Below, in pieces: positions 12,415-25,964 of a stretch of DNA of 64,000 nucleotides. The translations under genes were made by a program, and so were the position numbers. The DNA lies in contig JAUNGB010000010.1 in NCBI GenBank assembly GCA_030524715.1, forward strand, positions 1 to 64,000. The letters are read 5' to 3'. The notes beneath the pieces were generated by a model, which saw nothing but the letters and a program-made list of their open reading frames with translations, did not search any database and was not told the origin of the DNA. Source of the stretch: Eubacteriales bacterium (GTDB taxonomy: Bacteria > Bacillota > Clostridia > Lachnospirales > Lachnospiraceae). Each line of letters begins with the position of its first letter. Within the stretch, counting starts at the first letter, position 1.

Positions 12415-14841
12415 TTATACCTGCTTACTCATCATCGCTGCCAACTGTGCGATTGCCATTTCATCTCCATTAGCAGCTCCTACTGCAGCCCTCATCAGGG
12501 AAACCGGCGTTGCTCCGCCTCCCTGCTGCACAAGACGTACCAGTGGTGTATTCATCACAATGCTAACGGTAAACAGATACTCCGGATTTGTTTCATCACC
12601 GTTATAAGCTGCCAGCATTCCGCCTGTCATTCCCCGGATAATCTGCTGCACGATCGGGTTTTCCTTCATATCATTGAAAGTATTCAGTAATGTGAAGCAG
12701 CCCGGTTTTTCCAGCTCGAACGGCTTGATTTCCCGTCCGTAAATTTTTTCAAAATCAGCAACGGAAGGCTTACCAACCGGTTTCCTATACCATACAGGCA
12801 AATCCTGATATCCCATATCAGAAACTGTCCCCTGCACCGGAAGTTCTGCGGATAATGGAATATCTGCACTGGAAGTTCCTGCCAGAATCTGATAAGTGCC
12901 GCTTAGTACCTCCCATTCGCGAGTATGCACGTCATAATGGGCAAAAGCCCGTTTATCTAACGAAATCACAATTTCTCTTTCTTCACCCGGCTTCAGGAAT
13001 ACCTTACAAAAACCTTTTAATTCCTTCTTTGCCTTGAATATCTCCGGCGTTTGGTCTGCCACATAAATCTGTACCACTTCTGCTCCTGCCAATGTACCTG
13101 TATTCTTTACTTTGCAATGAACTTCAAGAGTACCCTCCTGATCTGCACAGTCCAAACGTTCTTTTGATAACGTAAGCTCAGACAGGGCAAAGGTTGTATA
13201 ACTCAATCCATAACCAAAGGGAAACTGTACCGGAATACCGGCTTTTTCATAATAACGATATCCTACATAAATGCTCTCCGCATATTCCACCTGTCTCGGA
13301 TTGACGCCAAAGGTTTCAGAAGAGGAACAGTCCGCATAGGAAACCGGATATGTTTCCGCAAGTTTTCCGCTTGGATTGGCGATTCCATAAAGCAGATCTG
13401 CTGCCGCCTCTCCGGCTGCCTGTCCGCCCAGATACAGATTCAATATGGCTTTTACCTGATGAATCCACGGCATTTCTACCGGGCTTCCTCCCATAAGAAC
13501 TACAACGATATTGGAGTTTACCTTTGCCAGCTCCATAATCAATTCATTGTGGCTTTCCGGCATCTGCATATGCATCCGGTCATACCCTTCGGATTCATAC
13601 GCGTCCGGAAGCCCTGCTGCTACCACAACAATATCCGCTTCTTTTGCGCCTTCCACTGCTTTTTTCAATTTTTCCTCATTGCGCTTTCCATTTAACTCAT
13701 AGGCCGGATAGTAGGAAATGTCTGCTCCCGTCCTCTCCATAGACTGTTTCATACTGGAAAGCTTTGTAGGATTAATATGAGAGGAACCCGCTCCCTGATA
13801 ACGGATTGTTTCCGCCATAGCCCCGCAAAGAGCAATCTTATTCTCTTTGGCAAGCGGCAGGATCCGATCTTCATTTTTCAGAAGAACAGCGCTCTCTTCT
13901 GCAATTTTCTTTGCCAATTCATGATGCGCCTCTACATCCATTGGCTTATTGGATCCTGTTTGCTTTCTCGTTTCCTGTGCCTTAAATACCAGTTTCAGAA
14001 TCCTCTCTGCGCAGGCATCAACGTCCTGTTCCAAAAGCCTGCCGTCTTCCACTGCCTGTTTTACTTCTTCGTCAAAGAAACCGCAGCTATTTGGCATTTC
14101 CAGATCACATCCGGCCTTGAATCCCGCAATCCGATCATTCATTGCGCCCCAGTCGGTCACCACTAAACCATCGAATCCCCATTCTTTACGAAGAATATCG
14201 GTTAAAAGCTTTTTGTTGTCACTGGAAAAAATTCCGTTGATCTTATTATAAGAACACATCACCGTATCCGGTTTGCTTTCTTTGACTGCCATTTCAAAAG
14301 CCGAAAGATAAATTTCACGGAGGGCGCGCTCATCCACCATGCTGTCGCCCATCATACGGTCCTGTTCCTGATTATTTGCTGCAAAATGTTTTAAACTGGT
14401 ACCCACACCTTTGCTCTGTACGCCATCAATCCAGTTTTTTGCCATGACGCCGGATAAATACGGATCCTCACTAAAATATTCAAAGTTACGTCCACATAAT
14501 GGATTTCTCTTCATACAAACGCCCGGTCCTAACACAACGTCCACTTCGTAGTACAGCGCTTCTTCACCGATCGCCTCCCCCATTTCTTTCAAAAGCTTTG
14601 GATTCCAGGACGCCGCACTTGCTGAAGCCGTAGGAAAACAAGTGGATTTTTCACTGTTGTTGATCCCGAGATGATCTGCCTCGCCTTTTTGTGTACGTAA
14701 TCCATGAGGTCCATCGGACATAAAGAAGGATGGTATTCCATATTGTTCCATCTTTTCCGACTCCCAGAATGATGCTCCGGAACATAATTTAATCTTGTCT
14801 TCCAGTGTCATCTTTGAAATAATATCCTTAATTTTATTCAT
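12415..14841 (-). CDS. Glycoside hydrolase family 3 beta-glycosidase
   Basis: This cytoplasmic exo-acting beta-glycosidase has no signal peptide; beta-glucosidase or beta-xylosidase activity is plausible. The 808 residues contain the GH3 N-terminal barrel (SDGPHGLR, GRNFEYFSEDPYLSG, KHFAANNQE) with nucleophile Asp in VVTDWGAMND. The C-terminal alpha/beta sandwich (LLKNEDRILPL) and a fibronectin-III-like domain follow. The last 100 residues form an extra helical tail that resembles the tail on the first rhamnosidase. The open frame starts six codons earlier, but GGAGAT is placed for the ATG at 14841. It follows the transporter gene in the same direction across a 131-base gap with a hairpin. 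Its probable role is trimming glycosides imported by that transporter. Confidence 0.93.
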   Translation of the reverse strand: MNKIKDIISKMTLEDKIKLCSGASFWESEKMEQYGIPSFFMSDGPHGLRTQKGEADHLGINNSEKSTCFPTASASAASWNPKLLKEMGEAIGEEALYYEVDVVLGPGVCMKRNPLCGRNFEYFSEDPYLSGVMAKNWIDGVQSKGVGTSLKHFAANNQEQDRMMGDSMVDERALREIYLSAFEMAVKESKPDTVMCSYNKINGIFSSDNKKLLTDILRKEWGFDGLVVTDWGAMNDRIAGFKAGCDLEMPNSCGFFDEEVKQAVEDGRLLEQDVDACAERILKLVFKAQETRKQTGSNKPMDVEAHHELAKKIAEESAVLLKNEDRILPLAKENKIALCGAMAETIRYQGAGSSHINPTKLSSMKQSMERTGADISYYPAYELNGKRNEEKLKKAVEGAKEADIVVVAAGLPDAYESEGYDRMHMQMPESHNELIMELAKVNSNIVVVLMGGSPVEMPWIHQVKAILNLYLGGQAAGEAAADLLYGIANPSGKLAETYPVSYADCSSSETFGVNPRQVEYAESIYVGYRYYEKAGIPVQFPFGYGLSYTTFALSELTLSKERLDCADQEGTLEVHCKVKNTGTLAGAEVVQIYVADQTPEIFKAKKELKGFCKVFLKPGEEREIVISLDKRAFAHYDVHTREWEVLSGTYQILAGTSSADIPLSAELPVQGTVSDMGYQDLPVWYRKPVGKPSVADFEKIYGREIKPFELEKPGCFTLLNTFNDMKENPIVQQIIRGMTGGMLAAYNGDETNPEYLFTVSIVMNTPLVRLVQQGGGATPVSLMRAAVGAANGDEMAIAQLAAMMSKQV

Positions 14842-14891
14842 TTTAATCTCCTTTGCCAATATAATCTCTCCGTTTTTTACAAATATTGGAT

Positions 14892-14972: not shown

Positions 14973-16361
14973 TTACTTATTCTGTGCTTTACGCTTCGCG
15001 ATTTCTTCTCTTAACTTCGGCAGTCTCGCTTCCAGATCGAATTTGCAGCTCATAATGAACAGTACTGCGAACATGATGGCGGGAAGATAAATGGAAAATG
15101 TGAAAATTGCCTGTTTGGTGGCTTCAGTGGCCACTGTCAGCGTCGCGTCATAGGCAGCGATCGCCAGACACCAGCCAATTACAGATGCCCCAATGCCGCT
15201 TCCAACTTTACATCCGAAGCTGGACGCCGCATTCGCACTTGCCACCATCCTCTTCCCGTACATATATTCATTATAATCGATAGCCATTCCCAGCATAACA
15301 CCCATCAGACACATCATTGGAATATTCGCAAAGGTTCCGAAGCAGCCCATAGCCACATTAAAAGCAAAGTGGTACGGATTTATAATTCTTACGACGTTTG
15401 CAATACATCCGATAGCAAAAGATACCTTTAATGTCTTTGTAACCCCCAGATGCTTGATCATCGGGCCTACCGCGATAAATCCTATCAGCGTCGGTATCAT
15501 CCCTACCGCACCCATAATTCCCATCAGGTTGTCATTTCCATAAATCCATTTTGCATAATATGTACCGGAGGAATTAGACAGTCCGTACAATATATTTACC
15601 ATGAAATTCATGACCAGAATCATCACCCAGTATTTATTGCCGAACAGCTTTGCAACAGCTTCTCTAAACGGCACTGCCTCTTCTTCCATCGCTTGCTCAT
15701 CTGTTGCTGTGGGCGGCGTCTCCCTGCTTGTCTTATAGCAAATCAGAAATGCAAGTACTGACAAAGCTCCGGCGATCGCGCCAAACTTAACCCATGCGCT
15801 CTGTGTCCCGCCCAGCATATTCGTAATCGGGATAATTGCAACCGCAATGATCATACCGGATATATAACCGGCTGCCGCCCTCCAGGTTCCCATTCGTCCG
15901 CGCTCTTCCTGGCTGTTCGTACGGACAATCATCAGAGAATTATACGGAATACTAACCGCAGTAAATGCTATAGTCGTAAATAACAGATTCGTAATCAACA
16001 GATATGCTATCTGAAGCCCTGAACTGCCCTTTGGAACCGTAAACATCAGAACAGTAAGGATTCCCGCCGGAATTCCCGCTTTAATAAGCCACGGCCGATA
16101 TTTTTCTTTTCCCGGCTTCGTATGATCTACAATATTTCCCATAAGCAGATCGGTAAATGCATCTACGATTTTACAGATCAACAGCATCGTTGCAACTGCT
16201 CCTGCAGCCACGCCGACCTTGTCGGTGTAAAAATATGTCATCTGACCTACCAGACCGCTCATTGCGTTCAATGCGAACTGCCCCAGCGAATCCCCGAAGA
16301 AATCCTTTCTCCGCATGGTACGCTGTACCCCAAACTTATCTTTCCCTAAATCTTTTGCCAT
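14973..16361 (-). CDS. GPH-type sugar:cation symporter (MFS superfamily)
   Basis: The protein belongs to the glycoside-pentoside-hexuronide transporter family, which imports small glycosides with a cation. Its 462 residues hold about twelve membrane segments. The family signature near the N-terminus is present as FGDSLGQFALNAMSG, followed by DAFTDLLMGNIVDHTKPGKE and KYRPWLI. The central loop is acidic (TDEQAMEEEAVPFREA). GAGAGGGA precedes the ATG at 16361. An AraC-type operator and -10 lie 105-160 bases upstream. As the only transporter in the plant-glycoside locus, it probably brings in the substrate that the signal-peptide-free hydrolases then cut in the cytosol. Confidence 0.9.
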   Translation of the reverse strand: MAKDLGKDKFGVQRTMRRKDFFGDSLGQFALNAMSGLVGQMTYFYTDKVGVAAGAVATMLLICKIVDAFTDLLMGNIVDHTKPGKEKYRPWLIKAGIPAGILTVLMFTVPKGSSGLQIAYLLITNLLFTTIAFTAVSIPYNSLMIVRTNSQEERGRMGTWRAAAGYISGMIIAVAIIPITNMLGGTQSAWVKFGAIAGALSVLAFLICYKTSRETPPTATDEQAMEEEAVPFREAVAKLFGNKYWVMILVMNFMVNILYGLSNSSGTYYAKWIYGNDNLMGIMGAVGMIPTLIGFIAVGPMIKHLGVTKTLKVSFAIGCIANVVRIINPYHFAFNVAMGCFGTFANIPMMCLMGVMLGMAIDYNEYMYGKRMVASANAASSFGCKVGSGIGASVIGWCLAIAAYDATLTVATEATKQAIFTFSIYLPAIMFAVLFIMSCKFDLEARLPKLREEIAKRKAQNK

Positions 16362-16465: not shown

Positions 16466-16520
16466 ATTATATTGTCAATTTCTGTTTATGTATTACAGTT
16501 TTGTGCTTTATGTTGTAATA
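16466..16520 (-). promoter_or_regulatory. Regulon promoter A (transporter-GH3 operon)
   Basis: The dyad TATTACAG-N14-TTGTAATA spans 16491-16520. On the minus strand it is followed at fixed distance by AATACA as -35 and TATAAT as -10 (16466-16471). The same layout recurs at 22126-22180 and 24659-24713. The poor -35 covered by the dyad fits a class II activator site, probably for the AraC protein encoded at 24765. The gap 16362-16561 holds nothing else. Confidence 0.65.
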
Positions 16521-16561
16521 TTGCGCATAATTTTTTTATAGATAATTCATTACAGCTCTTC

Positions 16562-19300
16562 CTACTTGTCTGTGCTGCTGTTGTTCAGCGCGTCCAGTAC
16601 CATCTGAAAAAGCCCTACACCTTCCGGCGGCATCACTGCTGTTAATTCGCTGATAGTCATCCCATAAGCAAACTGAATCATTGGCCCGTCCAGCATTCCC
16701 GGCATATACTGGTTGAACATTTCCACCGCCAACGGTTCCTGAATCAGCGCGCCCAGCGTCGTATCCATGGTAAATCTGTCCAGTTCCAGCTTTGTGTCGG
16801 TATCATATTCATAATGCCAGCAGCCGGAACCGGCCTGGAGGACTTCCTCTTTTTCCGGGAGCACTATCTGTGCCGTCGTATTTGCCGGAATTGTTACATC
16901 AATGGTGATTTTTCCTTCTTTACAGCTCCATGCGCTCCGTATCGTACCATAGACCGAATCAAATGATGCGTCCACGCTTGTAATTCCTTTGATAAACCTC
17001 GGCTGAATCCGGATTTCTTTATATCCCGGTTTCAGAGGATTGATCCCCGCCAGTTTCTCATACATCCAGTCTCCGATGGAGCCGTATGCATAATGATTCA
17101 GGCTGTTCATTCCGGATTCATCAAAGCTTCCGTCCTGCATGATAGAATTCCAACGCTCCCAAATCGTTGTAGCGCCACGTTTTACCGCATACAGCCATGA
17201 CGGATAATCTTCTTTCAGAAAAATGGTTCCGGCAAGGTCATGCATTCCGTTTTCCGATAATACATGGCACAGATACGGGGTTCCCACAAATCCGGTTGAT
17301 AAATGATTTTTATGATTGGCGATATTGGTTTCCAGTGACTTTGCAATCCGTGCGCGGTGTTCCTCCTCCGCCAGTCCGAAATGCAATGCCAGCACGCATC
17401 CGGTCTGGGTCTCACTGACCAGTCGCCCGGTTCTTGTAATATATTCTTCTTGGAATAATTTCACTATATTTTCATACAATTCCCCATACTTCCGCACATC
17501 TTCTTCCTGTTCAAGAATCTGCGCCGTCTTTCTCACAATATCCGTGGAATACGCATAATATGCATTTGCCACCAGATATTTATCCGTTGCCCCTGTCCGA
17601 TCTGCACTTTCTTCTTTATCCAGTGCCAGCCAGTCTCCATATTGATACCCGGTCTGCCACAGACCGTTTTCTCCGCAGTGCTCCGTAATATAATCTACAT
17701 AGCCTTTCATGCTCTCATATTGTTCTTCCAGAACCCGCTTATCGCCAAATACCTGATACACGGTCCATGGAACGATCGTTGCCGCGTCACTCCATGCGGC
17801 GGCCGCCTCCTGATCCGATAAAATATTCGGCACTACATGAGGCGGGCCAAATTCTTTTGTCTGCTCGCTTTTCAGATCCCGCAGCCACTTTTTGAAAAAC
17901 AGGGCGGTTTCCATATTATAAGACGCTGTTTTACTGAATACCTGCGCGTCTCCGGTCCATCCAAGCCGTTCGTCACGCTGCGGGCAGTCTGTGGGAATAT
18001 CGAGGAAATTACTGCGCTGTCCCCACTGGATATTGCTCTGTAATTGATTTACCGTTTTATTCGAGCAGGTAAAGCTTCCGGTCACCTTCATATCTGTATG
18101 TAATGTACAAGCGATAAAGTTGTCCGGATTCACCTCTTCCAGTCCCTCCACGCAGATATACCGGAATCCATGGAATGTAAAATGCGGTAAAAACATCTGG
18201 TCTGTTCCATTACAGATAAAGGTATCCGTCGATTTTGCCTGACGCAGTGTTTCCGGATAAAAATTTCCGTCCTTATCCAGTGTCTCTGCATGGCGGATCA
18301 CCACCTTCTGCCCTTTTTTCCCTTGCATCTTTACTTCCACGATTCCCGCCATGTTCTGCCCAAAATCCAGAACCTTCTCGCCTTTTGGAGTAACGATCAA
18401 TTCCTTTGCCGGAGTCCGTTTTGTAATCCGTACCGATTCGGATTCCTGCGCGATCAGATTTTCCATCGGATAAGAAAATGGTTCTGCGTCTGCGGCTTCA
18501 TTGCTCAGAAAGGTACTGTCAATGGTCTCCCCCATATAGAGTTCGCTATATCGGATCGATCCGGTTTTTACTTTCCAGTTTGTATCTGTTCCAATAATTT
18601 CTTTTGTGCCGTCTTCATATATCACGTGAAGCTCAGCAAGCGCTGCTGTGCGTTCTCCGTAATTGTCCGGCGTACAGGTAAAGCCAAGAATTCCTTTATA
18701 CCATCCATTTCCGACCGTAATTTCCAAAATATTGTCCCGCTCCAGCAGTTCCGTCACATCATAGGTCTGATACTGCAACCGCTTTTTATAGTTCGTCCAG
18801 CCCGGAGCAAAAAATGCATCTCCTGCTTTCTTCCCGTTAATGGATATTTCATACACGCCCAACGCCGTCGCATAAATTCTTGCCCGTTTCACTGGCTTTT
18901 TTAAGGAAACTGTTTTTGTAAATACCGGGCATGCTGTTTCTTCTTTTTCAAATGGATGTGTGATCCACTGCGCCGTGAAATTTTTACCCGAAAGTAATCC
19001 TGTCTCAAAACTTCCGTCAGCCGCAGCCATCTCACCATGATTATCCCACACCGTAACACGGTATTCGTACACCGTTTCCGCCTCCAGCGGAAGACCTCCG
19101 TATTCCACCAATACCGACTGATCTGACTTTCTGCGCCCGCAGTCCCATATCATCCTGCCTTCTGAAATCACCTGAATCTGGTATCCGGTCTGCATTGTAT
19201 CCGGTTTTTCTGATTCCAGCTTCCATGAAAATCTTGGTCTTAAGACATCCAGTCCGATCGGGTTCTTCCGATATTCTACCCTGCAATCAACAATCTGCAT
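16562..19300 (-). CDS. Alpha-L-rhamnosidase, glycoside hydrolase family 78 (first)
   Basis: The enzyme removes terminal alpha-L-rhamnose and is cytoplasmic. Its 912 residues follow the usual order: an N-terminal fibronectin-like domain, a jelly-roll domain (AWYKG-type region as VGNGWYKG), a second sandwich, then the six-hairpin catalytic domain and a C-terminal sandwich. The catalytic stretch reads DCPQRDERLGWTGD, with the general-acid Glu. The final 70 residues are a helical tail that begins FTMDTTLGALIQEP and is missing from the second rhamnosidase. AAAGGCGG precedes the ATG. It lies 47 bases after the second GH78 gene and is probably read with it from promoter B. Confidence 0.93.
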   Translation of the reverse strand: MQIVDCRVEYRKNPIGLDVLRPRFSWKLESEKPDTMQTGYQIQVISEGRMIWDCGRRKSDQSVLVEYGGLPLEAETVYEYRVTVWDNHGEMAAADGSFETGLLSGKNFTAQWITHPFEKEETACPVFTKTVSLKKPVKRARIYATALGVYEISINGKKAGDAFFAPGWTNYKKRLQYQTYDVTELLERDNILEITVGNGWYKGILGFTCTPDNYGERTAALAELHVIYEDGTKEIIGTDTNWKVKTGSIRYSELYMGETIDSTFLSNEAADAEPFSYPMENLIAQESESVRITKRTPAKELIVTPKGEKVLDFGQNMAGIVEVKMQGKKGQKVVIRHAETLDKDGNFYPETLRQAKSTDTFICNGTDQMFLPHFTFHGFRYICVEGLEEVNPDNFIACTLHTDMKVTGSFTCSNKTVNQLQSNIQWGQRSNFLDIPTDCPQRDERLGWTGDAQVFSKTASYNMETALFFKKWLRDLKSEQTKEFGPPHVVPNILSDQEAAAAWSDAATIVPWTVYQVFGDKRVLEEQYESMKGYVDYITEHCGENGLWQTGYQYGDWLALDKEESADRTGATDKYLVANAYYAYSTDIVRKTAQILEQEEDVRKYGELYENIVKLFQEEYITRTGRLVSETQTGCVLALHFGLAEEEHRARIAKSLETNIANHKNHLSTGFVGTPYLCHVLSENGMHDLAGTIFLKEDYPSWLYAVKRGATTIWERWNSIMQDGSFDESGMNSLNHYAYGSIGDWMYEKLAGINPLKPGYKEIRIQPRFIKGITSVDASFDSVYGTIRSAWSCKEGKITIDVTIPANTTAQIVLPEKEEVLQAGSGCWHYEYDTDTKLELDRFTMDTTLGALIQEPLAVEMFNQYMPGMLDGPMIQFAYGMTISELTAVMPPEGVGLFQMVLDALNNSSTDK

Positions 19301-19347
19301 AAAAACCGCCTTTCTTTTATTACTTGATCTTTTTTGTCATTTCTCTA

Positions 19348-22092
19348 CTATTTTTCGACTATTTCAAAGCTTCCGCTTCCCACTTCTTGTGTGATACTGC
19401 CTACACGCAGAACTGCACTGGTATTTTCCGGAATATGCACAAGAATGTGAACACTGCCATTCTCATGCTTTTTCCACTCAACAGAAATCCGTCCATGCAC
19501 ACAGTCAAAATACCCTTTTGCCCAATCCAGCCCACAAAAAATATCCGGGCAGATCTCAATCCTGTCATAGCCGACGCCGACATTTCGGATTCCCAGAATA
19601 TTGCGGTACATCCAGTCACCAACACATCCGAATGCATAATGATTAAAGGAACAGCCATCCCTGCTTCCGTCTTCCCGAATTGCATTCCATGACTCCCACA
19701 TCGTGGTTGCTCCCTGCTTGATTTCATACAGCCATGAAGGGCATTTTTCCTGAAACAAAAGCGAATATGCCTCTTCTTTTTTCCCATTTTCACTTAACAC
19801 ATCCAGAATGTGCGGAACCGACATAAACCCACAATCCATACAACCGCCATTTTCCTTGATTTTTTCAACAAGACGATCCAGCAGTCCCTTCCGGTGTTCC
19901 TCTGAAACCATCTTCATACGCAGCGCCAGAACATATACTCCCTGCATATCCTGCTTTAAGCGCCCGTCCGGCTGCAAATATGTTTCCTCAAATGCTTCCC
20001 TTATTCTTGCCGAAAGCTTCCTGCAATGTTCTGCTTCCTGTTCATCTCCAAGAATCTCTGCAATCTTTCCCACTTTTTCTGTTGTGTCGGCATAAATCGC
20101 TGTTGCGATCGTATGTCCTGTCAGGAAAGAGGATGCCGGGCCATCTGCAAAGCCCTCTTCATTTGTAACACTTGGAACCAGCCAGTCTCCAAAATGAAAT
20201 CCTGTATTCAGCAAGTACCGTTGATTTTCCTGTTCTCTCTCTGTCATATGTGCAGATGGATCCGGTATTACTATACCCGCCTGCCCTTCCAGATAGGACA
20301 GCCACTTTTTCATAGCTTCATAGTTTTCCTCCAACACCTTACGGTCTCCATAAATTCGATATAACTGCCACGGGAGTTCCACGATCACATCTCCCCATCC
20401 GGTAGAAGCCCCTCCGATCTGCTGTACATAATTACGAATCAGCGGCACGGTATTCTGCACGCCGCCATTTTCCATCTGCTCTTTCCTGACCGATTTCAGC
20501 CACTCTTCATAAAAAGACAGCAGGTTCTGATTAAAGCAGGATGTTTTGGCATACACATAGACGTCTCCGGTCCATCCGGCTTTCTCACGGGTCGGACAAT
20601 CCGTCGGTATTCCGATCATATTAGATCTCTGACTCCAGAATATATTTTCCTGCAGCCGGTTCAGCCGCTCATCCGAACAAAGAAAACTTCCCGACAATTC
20701 ATTGTCCGTTCCGATCACAATTCCCTTGAACTGTTCTTTCTTCCAAATCATCTCACAGGATGAAGTCACTTTTACATAACGGAATCCGTGATATGTCATG
20801 CTCGGCTCAAAGCATTCCTTTCCCTTTCCATTGAGAATATAAATATCCTTCTGTTTCTGTTCTCCATCTGCAAACGGATAAATAAACTGTTGTTCCTGAC
20901 CTAACTGCTCTGTGTGTTCAAATACGATCTCCGTTCCCTCTGTCCCTTTAATTCCCTCCACACGGATATGTCCGGCAAATCCTTGTCCGAAATCAACGAT
21001 CGTCTCGCCCTTTTTGTTCGTAAAGACTTCTATGGCTTCCAGTTCATCCAGTTTCCGAATGGGAGCGTCCGCCTGTGCTGTCAGGACGTTAAGATTTTCC
21101 TCTACGCTATGAACAGGTTTCCAATTCTGAACGTCCATATTCACCGTTGCAAATCCGGGAATCTCATATCTGGCGTCCACAGTCTGTCCGTTATACAAAT
21201 CCGCACGGCGGACAGGACCGTCATAACTATATACAAATTTCTCATCTGAAATCAGTTTTTGCCTGCTGCCATCCGCACAGCATACATCCATTTCCAAAAA
21301 CAGTCCCGGATTATCTCCATATTCGCATCCGCGTCCGGAACATATTTTTCCCTTATACCAGCCGTCGGCAACAACTGCCAGAACCGCATTTTCTCCGGCA
21401 TGAAGCAATTCCGTCACATCATAAACCTGATATTTCAATATCTTGTCATACGTTGTAAATTCCGGAGCCAACTGAACATCGGACGCCAGGACGCCATTTA
21501 TATAAAATTCATAAATACCATGCGCGGTCATATAAACACGCGCTTTCCATGAGGCTGACGGCAGCGAAAACTTACGATACATCATCACTGCCGGATGATA
21601 CGGATGACAAGGCTGTGATTTCAGATATGCGTCTGTATCAAAAAATTCTGCCGTTTCTCCCTTCATCATCTTTTGCACCACTTCGTTCCATTTTTCTTTA
21701 CATTCTTCCAATGGTTCGTATTCAAGTTTCGGCAGCTTATCCGGTTCTATAAACTTTGCGATCCACTCCCGGTTGTCAAACACTACCGTCTCAAACGAAC
21801 AGGATTGAGAATATACAGTTTCTCCGTTTGAAAGAACCGCTTCTATTTTGTAGATATAAGCTGTCCTGCTTTTTAACTCTTCTCCCATATACCGGATTCC
21901 AAAAGTACGGTTATCTTCTCTCCACCCGCTGTCCCAGCATAACCTTCCATCCTTCTGAACCGTAATCCGATAACTTTTTTGAAAAACAGCTTTTTCGTCC
22001 GAATCGATCTCCCATGAAAATCTGGGGTTTTTCACTGCTATGTTAATCGGATTTTTTAAATTTTCACATCTGACGTTTCTAATTCCTGACAT
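19348..22092 (-). CDS. Alpha-L-rhamnosidase, glycoside hydrolase family 78 (second)
   Basis: This second cytoplasmic GH78 enzyme has 914 residues and the same domain order as its neighbour, but is only distantly alike. The catalytic-region motif is shorter (DCPTREKAGWTGD), losing the DERLGW form while keeping a Glu at the acid position, so substrate preference may differ. VADGWYKGKI marks the accessory sandwich. An insertion near residues 115-150 (LEYEPLEECKEKW) is not in the first enzyme. It is the first gene of a two-gene rhamnosidase operon. Promoter B lies just upstream and overlaps the end of the esterase gene. Confidence 0.92.
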   Translation of the reverse strand: MSGIRNVRCENLKNPINIAVKNPRFSWEIDSDEKAVFQKSYRITVQKDGRLCWDSGWREDNRTFGIRYMGEELKSRTAYIYKIEAVLSNGETVYSQSCSFETVVFDNREWIAKFIEPDKLPKLEYEPLEECKEKWNEVVQKMMKGETAEFFDTDAYLKSQPCHPYHPAVMMYRKFSLPSASWKARVYMTAHGIYEFYINGVLASDVQLAPEFTTYDKILKYQVYDVTELLHAGENAVLAVVADGWYKGKICSGRGCEYGDNPGLFLEMDVCCADGSRQKLISDEKFVYSYDGPVRRADLYNGQTVDARYEIPGFATVNMDVQNWKPVHSVEENLNVLTAQADAPIRKLDELEAIEVFTNKKGETIVDFGQGFAGHIRVEGIKGTEGTEIVFEHTEQLGQEQQFIYPFADGEQKQKDIYILNGKGKECFEPSMTYHGFRYVKVTSSCEMIWKKEQFKGIVIGTDNELSGSFLCSDERLNRLQENIFWSQRSNMIGIPTDCPTREKAGWTGDVYVYAKTSCFNQNLLSFYEEWLKSVRKEQMENGGVQNTVPLIRNYVQQIGGASTGWGDVIVELPWQLYRIYGDRKVLEENYEAMKKWLSYLEGQAGIVIPDPSAHMTEREQENQRYLLNTGFHFGDWLVPSVTNEEGFADGPASSFLTGHTIATAIYADTTEKVGKIAEILGDEQEAEHCRKLSARIREAFEETYLQPDGRLKQDMQGVYVLALRMKMVSEEHRKGLLDRLVEKIKENGGCMDCGFMSVPHILDVLSENGKKEEAYSLLFQEKCPSWLYEIKQGATTMWESWNAIREDGSRDGCSFNHYAFGCVGDWMYRNILGIRNVGVGYDRIEICPDIFCGLDWAKGYFDCVHGRISVEWKKHENGSVHILVHIPENTSAVLRVGSITQEVGSGSFEIVEK

Positions 22093-22125
22093 TTTTTCTC
22101 CTTCCCGAATTTTCTTTATACGTAC

Positions 22126-22180
22126 ATCTTATTCATTTTCTTTTAATTTGTATTGCATTTTTATGCTTTATCTTGTAATA
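22126..22180 (-). promoter_or_regulatory. Regulon promoter B (rhamnosidase operon)
   Basis: The dyad TATTGCAT-N14-TTGTAATA is at 22151-22180. On the minus strand AATACA then TAAGAT (22126-22131) follow at the same spacing as in promoters A and C. The dyad overlaps the last six codons of the esterase gene, so the operator is built into coding sequence. Confidence 0.65.
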
Positions 22181-23069
22181 TTATGTCTTTTATAAAATCT
22201 TTAATCTGCCGGTATGCCTGTCTGCTTTCCGGCAAAGATGGCGTCACCTGAAAAATATGCATCATCTTATGGAATAAGGATAATTTGCTTTTCACTCCTG
22301 CTTCTACCAGTTTTTTATATAGGAAAAGCGAATCATCCCGCAGGACTTCTGAGTCGGAAACGATCACAAACGTTGGCGGAAAACCGGTATAATCCCCATA
22401 ATAAGGCGCCGCATAAGGATTATGCAGTACGGATGGTTCATCAGACTGCAGATATACTTCCCTGATCTCCTGCTGGAGATTAGAGATCATACAATCCGTA
22501 TCCAGATTATCATAGTAACTGGGGAATACATGATCAAACTGAATTGTCGGAGCCATTACAACGATACCTGCCGGTAAAGGAACTCTCTTGTCCTTAGCTT
22601 GCAAAACCGTTGTCAATACCAGATTTCCACCTGCGCTTTCTCCCATAAGAATGATATTCGATCCGCCAAATTTCTTCTCAAGTGTACAGTATGCCTTGAA
22701 GCAATCCTCCGGCGCACTCGGGAAAGGATATTCCGGTGCAAGCCGGTATTCAATGCTAACCACATTACATCCCGTTCTTTTTACAAGTTCACTGACCAGC
22801 GGGCGCACTGTTTTCGTGCTTCCTGACACAAAGCCTCCCCCATGAATATATACAATGTGTTTTTTCTTTTGATTTGACTCTGTATAAAGATATTCTCCCT
22901 TAAGATTCTCCAATTCGATTTTTTTACATTGTATTCCCCGGGGCAGCTTATTCGGCACAGTTCTTTCTTCTTGCATCCGTTTTTTTACATAATCCGGCGG
23001 GTTGTCCGGATCGTAAGCCTTTTTCCCTCGTTTTATCACCTGAAAAATGACATTATGTAATATACTCAT
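22161..23069 (-). CDS. Alpha/beta hydrolase, hormone-sensitive-lipase-type esterase
   Basis: This is a carboxylesterase of 302 residues. It has the oxyanion motif IHGGGF, the nucleophile elbow GESAGG, a late Asp in SDSEVLRDD and a His in KMMHIF, so the catalytic triad is complete. There is no signal peptide. The open frame begins at 23141 inside the GH43 gene, but GAGGTG stands before the ATG at 23069, giving a 52-base gap after GH43. It is probably co-transcribed with GH43 from promoter C. In a glycoside locus, removal of acetyl or acyl groups that block rhamnose or pentose residues is likely, but the acyl group is unknown. Confidence 0.88.
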   Translation of the reverse strand: MSILHNVIFQVIKRGKKAYDPDNPPDYVKKRMQEERTVPNKLPRGIQCKKIELENLKGEYLYTESNQKKKHIVYIHGGGFVSGSTKTVRPLVSELVKRTGCNVVSIEYRLAPEYPFPSAPEDCFKAYCTLEKKFGGSNIILMGESAGGNLVLTTVLQAKDKRVPLPAGIVVMAPTIQFDHVFPSYYDNLDTDCMISNLQQEIREVYLQSDEPSVLHNPYAAPYYGDYTGFPPTFVIVSDSEVLRDDSLFLYKKLVEAGVKSKLSLFHKMMHIFQVTPSLPESRQAYRQIKDFIKDIILQDKA

Positions 23070-23121
23070 TTCACACACCTCTGCTTTTTCTGACACTGTG
23101 TTTTTAAACAAAAATTTTGCT

Positions 23122-24600
23122 TTAGATTGGTTTGAGTTCAAGACCCAAAAACTCTATTGGGGAATTTCCTTTATACTCAAAATACAATGCTTTTTCCTGC
23201 TTCATAAAATCAACCGTCGTTTTAAAGACGGTCCACATCGGATTTTCTTCAATCTGAATCCTGCCTTTTTCACTGCCATTCAGACTTGTCCGGATTATAA
23301 GTTCTCCGGCTCCGCCTCTCACGGCAACACTAACCTCGGTCTTTCCCGAGAACTCAAAATATTTATATCCGATAACAGTTCCATCGCAAATGTCACTTAC
23401 AATTGTTTTTCCATTTCTGCCTTTCACATATGGTATTTTCTTCTTTGTAAATCCATTGATCGGACGCGGCATACGTCCTTTGAACAAATTACAGCACATT
23501 GCCGCCGGATATTTTCCGCTTCCTTTCAATGGTCCGCCATTCAGTCCGCAGCTTGTCATCTCAGCCTGCAGGATTTGACCATCTTCCGATATGATGATTG
23601 GTTCGGCGCATGCCTGTCTGCTGTAAGCGCTTTTATTCGTCGGTCTGTGATAAAACACATACCATGCTCCATTTATATTTACGATGCTTCCATGATTATT
23701 TCCGATCATATTTAAGCTGTCTTTTTCTGTTCGTCCGTCAATTCCAACATCTCCATTTGAAACAATGACTCCGCCATATCGGAAATTCTTATCCGGATAC
23801 GCGCTCGTTGCATAACACAATTCATGATTATTCTGCGAAGAATAGATAAAATAGTATTTCGATCCGATTTTTCGAATGCTGCTTGCTTCAAAAAATCCAT
23901 GTCCTTCAAATTCTGTTCCTTTTACCTTACTCGGCATAATTTTGACAGGTCCGGTTTTTACCGTAATCATATCATCTTCCAGCACACAAGTTACCGCTCC
24001 CATAACGTCTTCCATCTTCACTTCTTCCACCGGCTTGGAAAAAAGGCCGGACTCAATCTTACGGAACAGCCATCGATTCCACATATTTTCTTTATCCGCA
24101 AAGAAAAAGCATGTTCCATAATATAACCTTATTACGCCGTCGTCGTTCATGACTGCCGGATCAAACGGAACAAAACGCTTTAACAATGTACCGTCTGCAT
24201 ATTGCACATGACCATAAAATTCATATTTTCCATCCGGCGTATCACATACCGCTACACTGATCGGTCCTTGATATCCACCTTTTCCGGCATACCCTGAAAG
24301 GCAGTAATACAGATAAAACTTCCCGTCGTTCCCCTGCACCACATCCGGTGCGTACAAATATTTCCACTCTTCTGTTGCCAGCGGATCTTGTCTGCCTGAA
24401 TAGTTTATCCCCTTATTGGTCCAGTCTGCAAGATTATCCACAGATGCGGAGTATATCGTATAATCTAAAACACAGTAGGTATCTCCGTTTTCTTTGTCAT
24501 GCGAACCGAATAAATATACTCTGTCGCCAAACACATGCGGCTCCCCATCCGGAATATACTCATGCATTGGCAGAAATGGATTGATTGCCTGCTTTTTCAT
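23122..24600 (-). CDS. Glycoside hydrolase family 43 (xylosidase/arabinofuranosidase type)
   Basis: This cytoplasmic GH43 enzyme of 492 residues has a five-bladed propeller. The likely catalytic base is in the first blade (IPDGEPHVFG). The pKa-modulating Asp is in LYAPDVVQG and the general-acid Glu is in GHGFFEASS. The C-terminal 120 residues look like a beta-sandwich carbohydrate-binding module (CBM6-like). GGGAG precedes the ATG at 24600 and promoter C lies at 24659-24713. The gene is divergent from the AraC regulator. Arabinose or xylose removal from a rhamnose-containing plant glycoside is the simplest role. Confidence 0.9.
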   Translation of the reverse strand: MKKQAINPFLPMHEYIPDGEPHVFGDRVYLFGSHDKENGDTYCVLDYTIYSASVDNLADWTNKGINYSGRQDPLATEEWKYLYAPDVVQGNDGKFYLYYCLSGYAGKGGYQGPISVAVCDTPDGKYEFYGHVQYADGTLLKRFVPFDPAVMNDDGVIRLYYGTCFFFADKENMWNRWLFRKIESGLFSKPVEEVKMEDVMGAVTCVLEDDMITVKTGPVKIMPSKVKGTEFEGHGFFEASSIRKIGSKYYFIYSSQNNHELCYATSAYPDKNFRYGGVIVSNGDVGIDGRTEKDSLNMIGNNHGSIVNINGAWYVFYHRPTNKSAYSRQACAEPIIISEDGQILQAEMTSCGLNGGPLKGSGKYPAAMCCNLFKGRMPRPINGFTKKKIPYVKGRNGKTIVSDICDGTVIGYKYFEFSGKTEVSVAVRGGAGELIIRTSLNGSEKGRIQIEENPMWTVFKTTVDFMKQEKALYFEYKGNSPIEFLGLELKPI

Positions 24601-24658
24601 CTCATGTCTCCCTTTAAAAAGCTTTCTTTGACCTTGAATCTATTTTTTATTTAGATTT

Positions 24659-24713
24659 ATTTTAATTGCATTTTATCATTTTGTATTGCAATTATATGCT
24701 TTATCTTGTAATA
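24659..24713. promoter_or_regulatory. Regulon promoter C (GH43-esterase operon; AraC gene divergent)
   Basis: The dyad TATTGCAA-N14-TTGTAATA is at 24684-24713. On the minus strand AATACA and TAAAAT (24659-24664) follow at the spacing seen in promoters A and B. The AraC gene begins 51 bases away on the other side, so the same site may control the regulator's own expression. Confidence 0.68.
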
Positions 24714-24764
24714 TTGTGTTTATGGAAACATTTTATGATTTCAAAAAAGCGAGGAGAAATACTT

Positions 24765-25964
24765 ATGGATTCTATTTTCACATTTTGCCAGACACTTTAC
24801 AACTGCACTTATCTTCCCATGCATTATTATAAAAATGACCAACTGGAATTAACTCTGCCCAATACAGGTTTTTCTTTCGATCTGGCAGCCCCGTATCTGC
24901 CAAAGCTGCTGGAAGAGCAGCGCCCGGTTTCTTATCTGATTACAAAGGAATTTCAGTATTTCGGACTGGTTCAAAATTCCAAAACAGGAAGCCGGGTTCT
25001 GATTGGACCGGTGATCAGCAATCAGCCCTCTTCCGCTTCTATTCGAAACCTTATGAAAGAATATGCGATTCCTTTCGAATATAAAGAACAACTGACAGAA
25101 CTTTATCAGTTTACGCCGATGTTTTCTTTCCATCAGTTCTGTCATTTTCTTGCATTGCTGTATCAGGAATTATTTGGGGAATCCATTGATATAGAAGCTT
25201 ATCTCGGTCTGTACTCTGATGACGGGAGCATCCCGATCGCTTCAATCCATTCTGCAAATATATACGAAGCAAAAGAGGCGGAACGGTTTCACAACACGTA
25301 TCACTATGAGCAAATGTATCTGGATTATATCCGTACAGGAAATACTGCCGGATTGAAGAAATTCTTTTCAAATGCTTTTTCTCTTCAGGAAGGACAGGTT
25401 GCAGACAACACATTACGTCAGGCAAAAAATATTCTGGTCGTATCCGTGACCCTGGCTACCCGCTGCGCAATTGAAGGCGGACTGGATATCGAATCTGCTT
25501 ATCAGCTCAGCGATGTGTATATTCAGGAGGGTGAAAAACTACAGAGTGTAGATGCCCTTAACCGCCTGCAGTACAATATGCTCCTTGATTTTACCAATCG
25601 CGTGGCACAGGCACAGATTCCTTTTGATACGACTTCGGATATTTACAAATGTATCCAATACATCCACCATTGTACAAATCAGCCGCTCTCTGTAGAAGAT
25701 GTGGCAAACCATGTAGGAAAAAGCCGTTCTTACATTTCCAGAAGATTCAAAAAAGAATTGGGATTTTCTATGAATGAATTCATTACGCGTTGCAAATTAG
25801 AAGAAGCAAAGTCCCTGCTGACCTACACCGACAAATCGATCAGTGAAATCAGCAGTTACCTTTGCTTCTCAAGTCAAGCCTATTTTCAGAATGTGTTTAA
25901 GAAAAAATATGGAATCACTCCAAACGAATATCGCAAAAGACCGAAAACTGAAATTTGTTACTGA
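24765..25964 (+). CDS. AraC-family regulator of the plant-glycoside regulon
   Basis: This is a 399-residue transcription factor. The N-terminal 280 residues form a sensor region without a recognised cupin; its start (FTFCQTLYNC) and length suggest a ligand-binding domain of its own. The last 100 residues are two helix-turn-helix motifs: LSVEDVANHVGKSRSYISRRFK and then ISEISSYLCFSSQAYFQNVF, ending GITPNEYRK. GAGGAG is eight bases before the ATG at 24765; the longer open frame adds 33 unlikely residues. It is the best candidate to bind the shared dyads in promoters A, B and C. The activating sugar is unknown. Confidence 0.9.
   Translation: MDSIFTFCQTLYNCTYLPMHYYKNDQLELTLPNTGFSFDLAAPYLPKLLEEQRPVSYLITKEFQYFGLVQNSKTGSRVLIGPVISNQPSSASIRNLMKEYAIPFEYKEQLTELYQFTPMFSFHQFCHFLALLYQELFGESIDIEAYLGLYSDDGSIPIASIHSANIYEAKEAERFHNTYHYEQMYLDYIRTGNTAGLKKFFSNAFSLQEGQVADNTLRQAKNILVVSVTLATRCAIEGGLDIESAYQLSDVYIQEGEKLQSVDALNRLQYNMLLDFTNRVAQAQIPFDTTSDIYKCIQYIHHCTNQPLSVEDVANHVGKSRSYISRRFKKELGFSMNEFITRCKLEEAKSLLTYTDKSISEISSYLCFSSQAYFQNVFKKKYGITPNEYRKRPKTEICY

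Follow-up and report, generated by a model that had tools for sequence, protein, structure and literature searches.

The stretch of DNA analysed here, called the window below, comprises 64,000 nucleotides (positions 1 to 64,000 of contig JAUNGB010000010.1, assembly GCA_030524715.1, from a member of the Lachnospiraceae filed as Eubacteriales bacterium). It contains a putative glycoside-utilisation cluster of three operons, GPH symporter-GH3, GH78-GH78 and GH43-esterase (GH, glycoside hydrolase family), with an AraC-type gene alongside. This is the gene order of the initial annotation, which had also placed one common promoter module in front of the three operons, and our scan recovers the modules where they had been located: TATTRCA-N16-TGTAATA occurs with zero mismatches at 16491-16520, 22151-22180 and 24684-24713, and no further copy exists in the window. 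Each time, the pattern is followed on the minus strand by AATACA as the −35 element, 17 bases and a −10 element (Table 1), each module reading AATATTACAAnATAAAGCAnAnAAnTGnAATA, then CA. Operator and −35 taken together (34 columns) are 29-32/34 identical when the three modules are compared in pairs, but the 17-base spacer is only 6-9/17 identical and the upstream flank 6-12/25. The operator was thus kept while its surroundings changed, so that the modules are not simply a recent copy. AATACA agrees with TTGACA at three of six positions, the −35 being equally poor in all three promoters as annotated, and because of it none of them passes a 9-of-12 consensus promoter filter. Module 2 shares the last 22 base pairs (bp) of the esterase open reading frame (ORF; 22161-23141), whose end at 22161 falls within operator 2, a feature absent from the initial annotation.

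Table 1. Genes, operators and promoter elements of the cluster (positions in the window)
Feature	Position	Strand	Basis or remark
GH3 glycosidase	12415..14859	-	nearest model exo-alpha-(1->6)-L-arabinopyranosidase, 782 bits, under its cut-off of 1300
GPH-family sugar:cation symporter	14973..16361	-	PF13347; TIGR00792, 261 bits, cut-off 231
-10 TATAAT, promoter 1	16466..16471	-	
-35 AATACA, promoter 1	16489..16494	-	4 bp shared with operator 1
Operator 1, direct repeats 16511-16518 and 16491-16498	16491..16522	-	pattern scan, relatives' profile; upstream of GPH symporter and GH3
GH78 alpha-L-rhamnosidase	16562..19300	-	family model matches
GH78 alpha-L-rhamnosidase	19348..22092	-	family model matches
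-10 TAAGAT, promoter 2	22126..22131	-	
-35 AATACA, promoter 2	22149..22154	-	
Operator 2, repeats 22171-22178 and 22151-22158	22151..22182	-	pattern scan, relatives' profile; upstream of GH78-GH78
Alpha/beta hydrolase esterase	22161..23141	-	nearest NCBIfam models of hormone-sensitive-lipase type, under cut-off
GH43-like glycosidase	23122..24600	-	PF04616
-10 TAAAAT, promoter 3	24659..24664	-	
-35 AATACA, promoter 3	24682..24687	-	
Operator 3, repeats 24704-24711 and 24684-24691	24684..24715	-	pattern scan, relatives' profile; upstream of GH43-esterase, in the gap before the divergent araC
Tentative araC promoter within operator 3, TTGCAA-N17-TAATAT, 8/12 consensus	24686..24714	+	sequence and relatives; hypothesis only
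AraC-type regulator, 399 residues; N-terminal alpha/beta sensor-like domain, helical linker, C-terminal double helix-turn-helix	24765..25964	+	profile matches, predicted structure

The genome to which the window belongs comprises 5.28 Mb in 210 contigs, with a listed contamination of 5%. With up to two mismatches allowed, the full pattern matches it three times, always in the cluster, and the reversed control gives 0. A profile of 33 sites from relatives, containing no window site, ranks the three modules 1 to 3 genome-wide (E 7.3e-6, 6.2e-4 and 1.2e-3), the next match being partial at E 0.12 (150 of 3827 first-look candidates scored); inclusion of the window sites widens the gap (E 2.8e-7, 6.4e-6 and 2.2e-5, then 0.07; 150 of 3271 candidates scored). 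Since the three modules are the only convincing copies found in the genome, the regulon found by these scans is local, i.e. confined to one cluster. It had been proposed that the site would permit prediction of the regulon throughout the genome, a hope which the scans disappoint, as they gave nothing convincing outside this cluster.

For comparison we used the best 80 of 155 stretches from species genomes, i.e. 79 distinct loci, whose regulators are 38-78% identical to that of the window. These loci are mostly titled Lachnospiraceae or its genera, and a few titles of metagenome-assembled genomes (MAGs) name other groups. A matrix made from the three window operators only, with no −10, gave 44 matches at ≥16 bits, as against 0-2 for ten column-shuffled matrices (78 of the 79 loci), and a refined matrix gave 91 sites at ≥18 bits (shuffled control: 0-1 matches versus 99). 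The sites contain only about 18-21% G+C and a loose dyad is not uncommon (with up to three mismatches, the window has 21 matches versus 9.0 expected), so one might suspect that AT-rich promoters resemble each other by chance. This explanation is refuted by the shuffled matrices and by the clear genome-wide gap between the three modules and the next match, and we give it next to no credence.

The initial annotation took the element for a dyad, i.e. an inverted repeat to which a symmetric dimer would bind. In the window such a reading is attractive: the dyad is exact at all three sites, with inverted arms agreeing at 6-7/7 positions versus 4-6/8 for the direct boxes (half-sites TTACAASA and NTGYAATA), and in a few of the relatives' upstream regions, e.g. 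L052, L062 and L067, the dyad is likewise the better fit of the two. Over the relatives as a whole, however, the balance is reversed. Among the 36 sites left of the 44 once near-identical stretches were removed, the dyad arms agree at 4.3/7 positions and the direct repeat at 6.5/8; for the 79 non-redundant sites of the refined set, these values are 3.9/7 and 6.8/8. The best ten-base identity averages 8.0 at lag 20 in the 36 sites and at most 5.9 at the other lags from 10 to 26, and in the refined set lag 20 reaches 10.9/16 versus at most 6.6 elsewhere. Lag 20 is the sole strong repeat lag in the relatives' sites, in keeping with AraC/XylS operators, whose two direct half-sites are spaced by about 20-21 bp. 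An accidental dyad, moreover, arises easily from AT-rich boxes such as TTACAA and TRCAATA. Since the repeat gains and the dyad loses strength in the relatives, the conserved element is, on this sequence comparison, a direct repeat of 20-bp period and the dyad a misreading; a truly inverted operator appears improbable.

The annotated tie between the site and the neighbouring regulator is upheld, since the site follows this AraC subfamily from genome to genome; relatives of the regulator in many gut bacteria have the same design next to them. Within 400 bp upstream of the AraC relatives, TTACAATA-N12-TTACAATA is found exactly in 16 of 79 regions and with up to three mismatches in 65, the consensus having been derived from the very regions in which it was counted; shuffled sequence averages about 5 mismatches. 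In 60 of the 65 regions the repeat lies on the strand heading away from araC. Upstream of two araC relatives (L006:9895-9971 and L015:9846-9922) the operator occurs in copies that overlap with a 20-bp offset and so form a third repeat, which suggests extra half-sites there. Even if real, the module might nevertheless be the target of a different regulator, or its three copies might be recent duplicates. Other regulators do exist: a related family model finds 90 AraC-type matches in the window's own genome. The closest paralogue is just 32% identical to the regulator, and no comparable site was present at 14 paralogue loci (L084-L097, out of 41 paralogue matches; 3.3-4.1 kb each), the best score there being 12.3 versus 46-50 bits. 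Given also the divergence of the spacers and the association with one subfamily, we hold either variant to be very improbable. The regulator is patchily distributed within the genus, as only three of 11 genomes, own included, have a match at E ≤1e-40 (genus search, G263 and G405-G413); the best matches in the two others are 45-53% identical.

The class II-like layout proposed at the outset, in which the site overlaps a poor −35 at a fixed spacing, agrees with the data as well. The proximal repeat shares 4 bp with AATACA and 17 bp further on lies the −10. Among the 36 relatives' sites, in the finding of which the −10 columns had no role, 24 have a −10-like TAnnnT in columns 52-57, the spacing of the window; no alternative start between columns 33 and 72 gives it in more than six. 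A poor −35 overlapped by an activator site fits AraC-type class II activation, in which use of the promoter needs a bound activator contacting RNA polymerase.

As anticipated, the site is also conserved ahead of glycosidase and transporter genes in the relatives. For 85 of the 91 sites an ORF lies downstream in the locus, at a median distance of 110 bp and within 300 bp in 78 cases; the 85 sites are spread over 52 loci, 26 of which have at least two. By tblastn to the cluster proteins, the first genes resemble those for a symporter (19), GH78 (20), GH3 (4), GH43 (3) or AraC (1). No L-rhamnose catabolic gene was seen among the 46 first genes that resemble glycosidase or symporter genes of the cluster, or in a scan of 20 others. 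Two further observations concern single targets. In a Butyrivibrio MAG a site (5′ end 3146, minus strand) precedes a gene for an old-yellow-enzyme-like reductase fused to NAD-dependent epimerase-type domains (L013:1-3009), possibly an aglycone-modifying enzyme under like control, and a radical SAM/SPASM protein gene (L024:8605-9732; SAM, S-adenosylmethionine), unusual for a glycosidase regulon, follows an araC-adjacent site. In the whole genomes of eight relatives, the repeat and −10 pattern gave nine zero-mismatch matches, five of which adjoin an AraC of the subfamily, with a further three at up to about 6 kb from one.

On this evidence the three modules are very probably activator-dependent promoters of a local glycoside-utilisation cluster, under control of the divergent AraC protein. 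Several observations weigh against such an interpretation. The window half-sites form a degenerate repeat, 14 of the 79 upstream regions of AraC relatives have at least four mismatches, and TAnnnT is missing from the expected column in 12 of the 36 sites. The first downstream gene resembles no cluster protein in 38 of 85 cases; the 20 of these that were scanned comprise nine glycoside hydrolases (GH1, GH2, GH5, GH43, GH106, the last in locus L021, and one weak GH42), two esterases, one solute-binding protein, three other enzymes and five uninformative cases. In the eight whole genomes, 40 matches were found with up to two mismatches versus 12 in the reversed control, so that many of the weaker ones are probably due to chance; the weaker matches also include several near-identical copies dispersed in one genome. 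For the ninth zero-mismatch match, the nearest AraC relative is 41% identical and about 10.6 kb away, although the match stands 2.5 kb ahead of a GPH-symporter homologue. Finally, the refined-matrix and R2 sites were first chosen by likeness to the window sites, hence the tests are not fully independent, and counts are per site, with shared ancestry handled only by dropping near-identical rows.

From the sites, their spacing, the conservation of the direct repeat, the association with one AraC subfamily and the restriction of convincing sites to three in the genome, all read from sequence, we infer binding, activation and an inducer as follows. The AraC-family protein encoded at 24765-25964 would bind two head-to-tail half-sites 20 bp apart, probably with one monomer on each. 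The bound regulator, most likely acting as a head-to-tail pair, would cover 4 bp of the poor −35 and recruit sigma-A RNA polymerase to the −10 located 17 bp on. GPH-GH3, GH78-GH78 and GH43-esterase would be switched on jointly upon sensing of a glycoside, probably a rhamnosylated one; shared control of the three operons, as initially annotated, accords with their common operator and −35 layout. The GH78 pairs, the GH3 with its resemblance (under cut-off) to arabinopyranosidase models and the GH5 and GH106 targets of relatives suggest rhamnosylated plant glycosides as the inducer class. The unit is real, well conserved and of conventional AraC type, and its proposed mechanism is conventional.

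The regulator itself fits this part. Its C-terminal double helix-turn-helix, of the expected length of about 100 residues, is detected by PF12833 and PF00165 over cut-off, and Foldseek and VIA return matches to AraC-type DNA-binding domains. The predicted structure, of good confidence (AlphaFold; mean predicted local distance difference test score, pLDDT, 89; predicted template modelling score, pTM, 0.76), has an N-terminal domain which resembles Roadblock, GAF and IclR-effector folds, a resemblance that is not decisive. The best NCBIfam match, TIGR04094, covers residues 77-390 with 159.4 bits, under the curated cut-off of 200. The protein is not a RhaS or RhaR of the E. coli type by the models searched, as it reaches 45.9 bits with the RhaS model (cut-off 288) and also stays far under the cut-offs of the RhaR models.

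The operator may have a second function. On the araC strand, relatives often display TTGTAA-N17-TAWWWT within the operator, and TAnnnT on that strand is kept in 36 of 37 araC-adjacent sites, 28 of 38 internal sites and two of four sites beside another divergent gene. In 13 of the 37 araC-adjacent cases the araC match (i.e. the start of the alignment) begins within 50 bp of the operator edge, which leaves little space for a separate promoter between the two. This pattern suggests autorepression of araC via an operator-embedded promoter. We may thus speculate, tentatively and with more doubt than confidence, that the 32-bp operator acts as a two-way switch, with TTGYAA-N17-TAWWWT as the araC promoter, in which one binding event would activate the glycosidase operons and shut off araC, and that a large AraC subfamily of the Lachnospiraceae would share this operator-promoter unit as its regulatory code.

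In many Lachnospiraceae, members of this AraC subfamily accompany gene clusters for plant glycosides. The analysis provides a concrete, testable candidate operator for the subfamily and would make its targets predictable from DNA alone. The direct-repeat rule also corrects an inverted-repeat reading that would have misled binding tests.

How does this system compare with known ones? A known system with a divergent araC has head-to-tail half-sites in common with ours, with differing letters and a differing sensor domain here; in both, the promoter-proximal site lies at the −35. E. coli RhaS/RhaR are alike in being of the AraC family, in the rhamnose theme and in a class II-like position. According to Rodionova et al. 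2013 (PMC3870299), their sites are inverted repeats of two half-sites, in contrast to the direct repeat described here, whereas in Bacillales, Bacteroides and Enterococcus the rhamnose regulators of AraC type use direct repeats of 21-bp period. The latter are like our case in regulator type, direct-repeat operator, discovery by comparative genomics and rhamnose-related targets; they differ in that the period is 21 bp and the targets are L-rhamnose catabolism genes, as opposed to 20 bp and glycosidases with a GPH symporter here, where the letters in the relatives are TTACAATA. In gut bacteria, loci are described with a glucuronide transporter, a beta-glucuronidase, an esterase and an AraC gene whose best homologues are named YSIRK-type (PMC4732671). 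They likewise combine an AraC gene with a sugar-conjugate transporter, a glycosidase and an esterase, for glucuronides there and rhamnosides here; the word ‘promoter’ is absent from the available main text of that article. A TG ahead of the −10, noted for C. phytofermentans promoters (PMC5171806), is present in many relatives' sites and not in those of the window. The nearest named family, although the score is under its curated cut-off, is that of the TIGR04094 YSIRK-adjacent regulators, e.g. EbrB of E. faecium, which controls a surface protein operon and for which PMC3669262 reports that no obvious binding site was identified. If true, the two-way switch would supply a code for an AraC subfamily whose nearest named family includes this very regulator.
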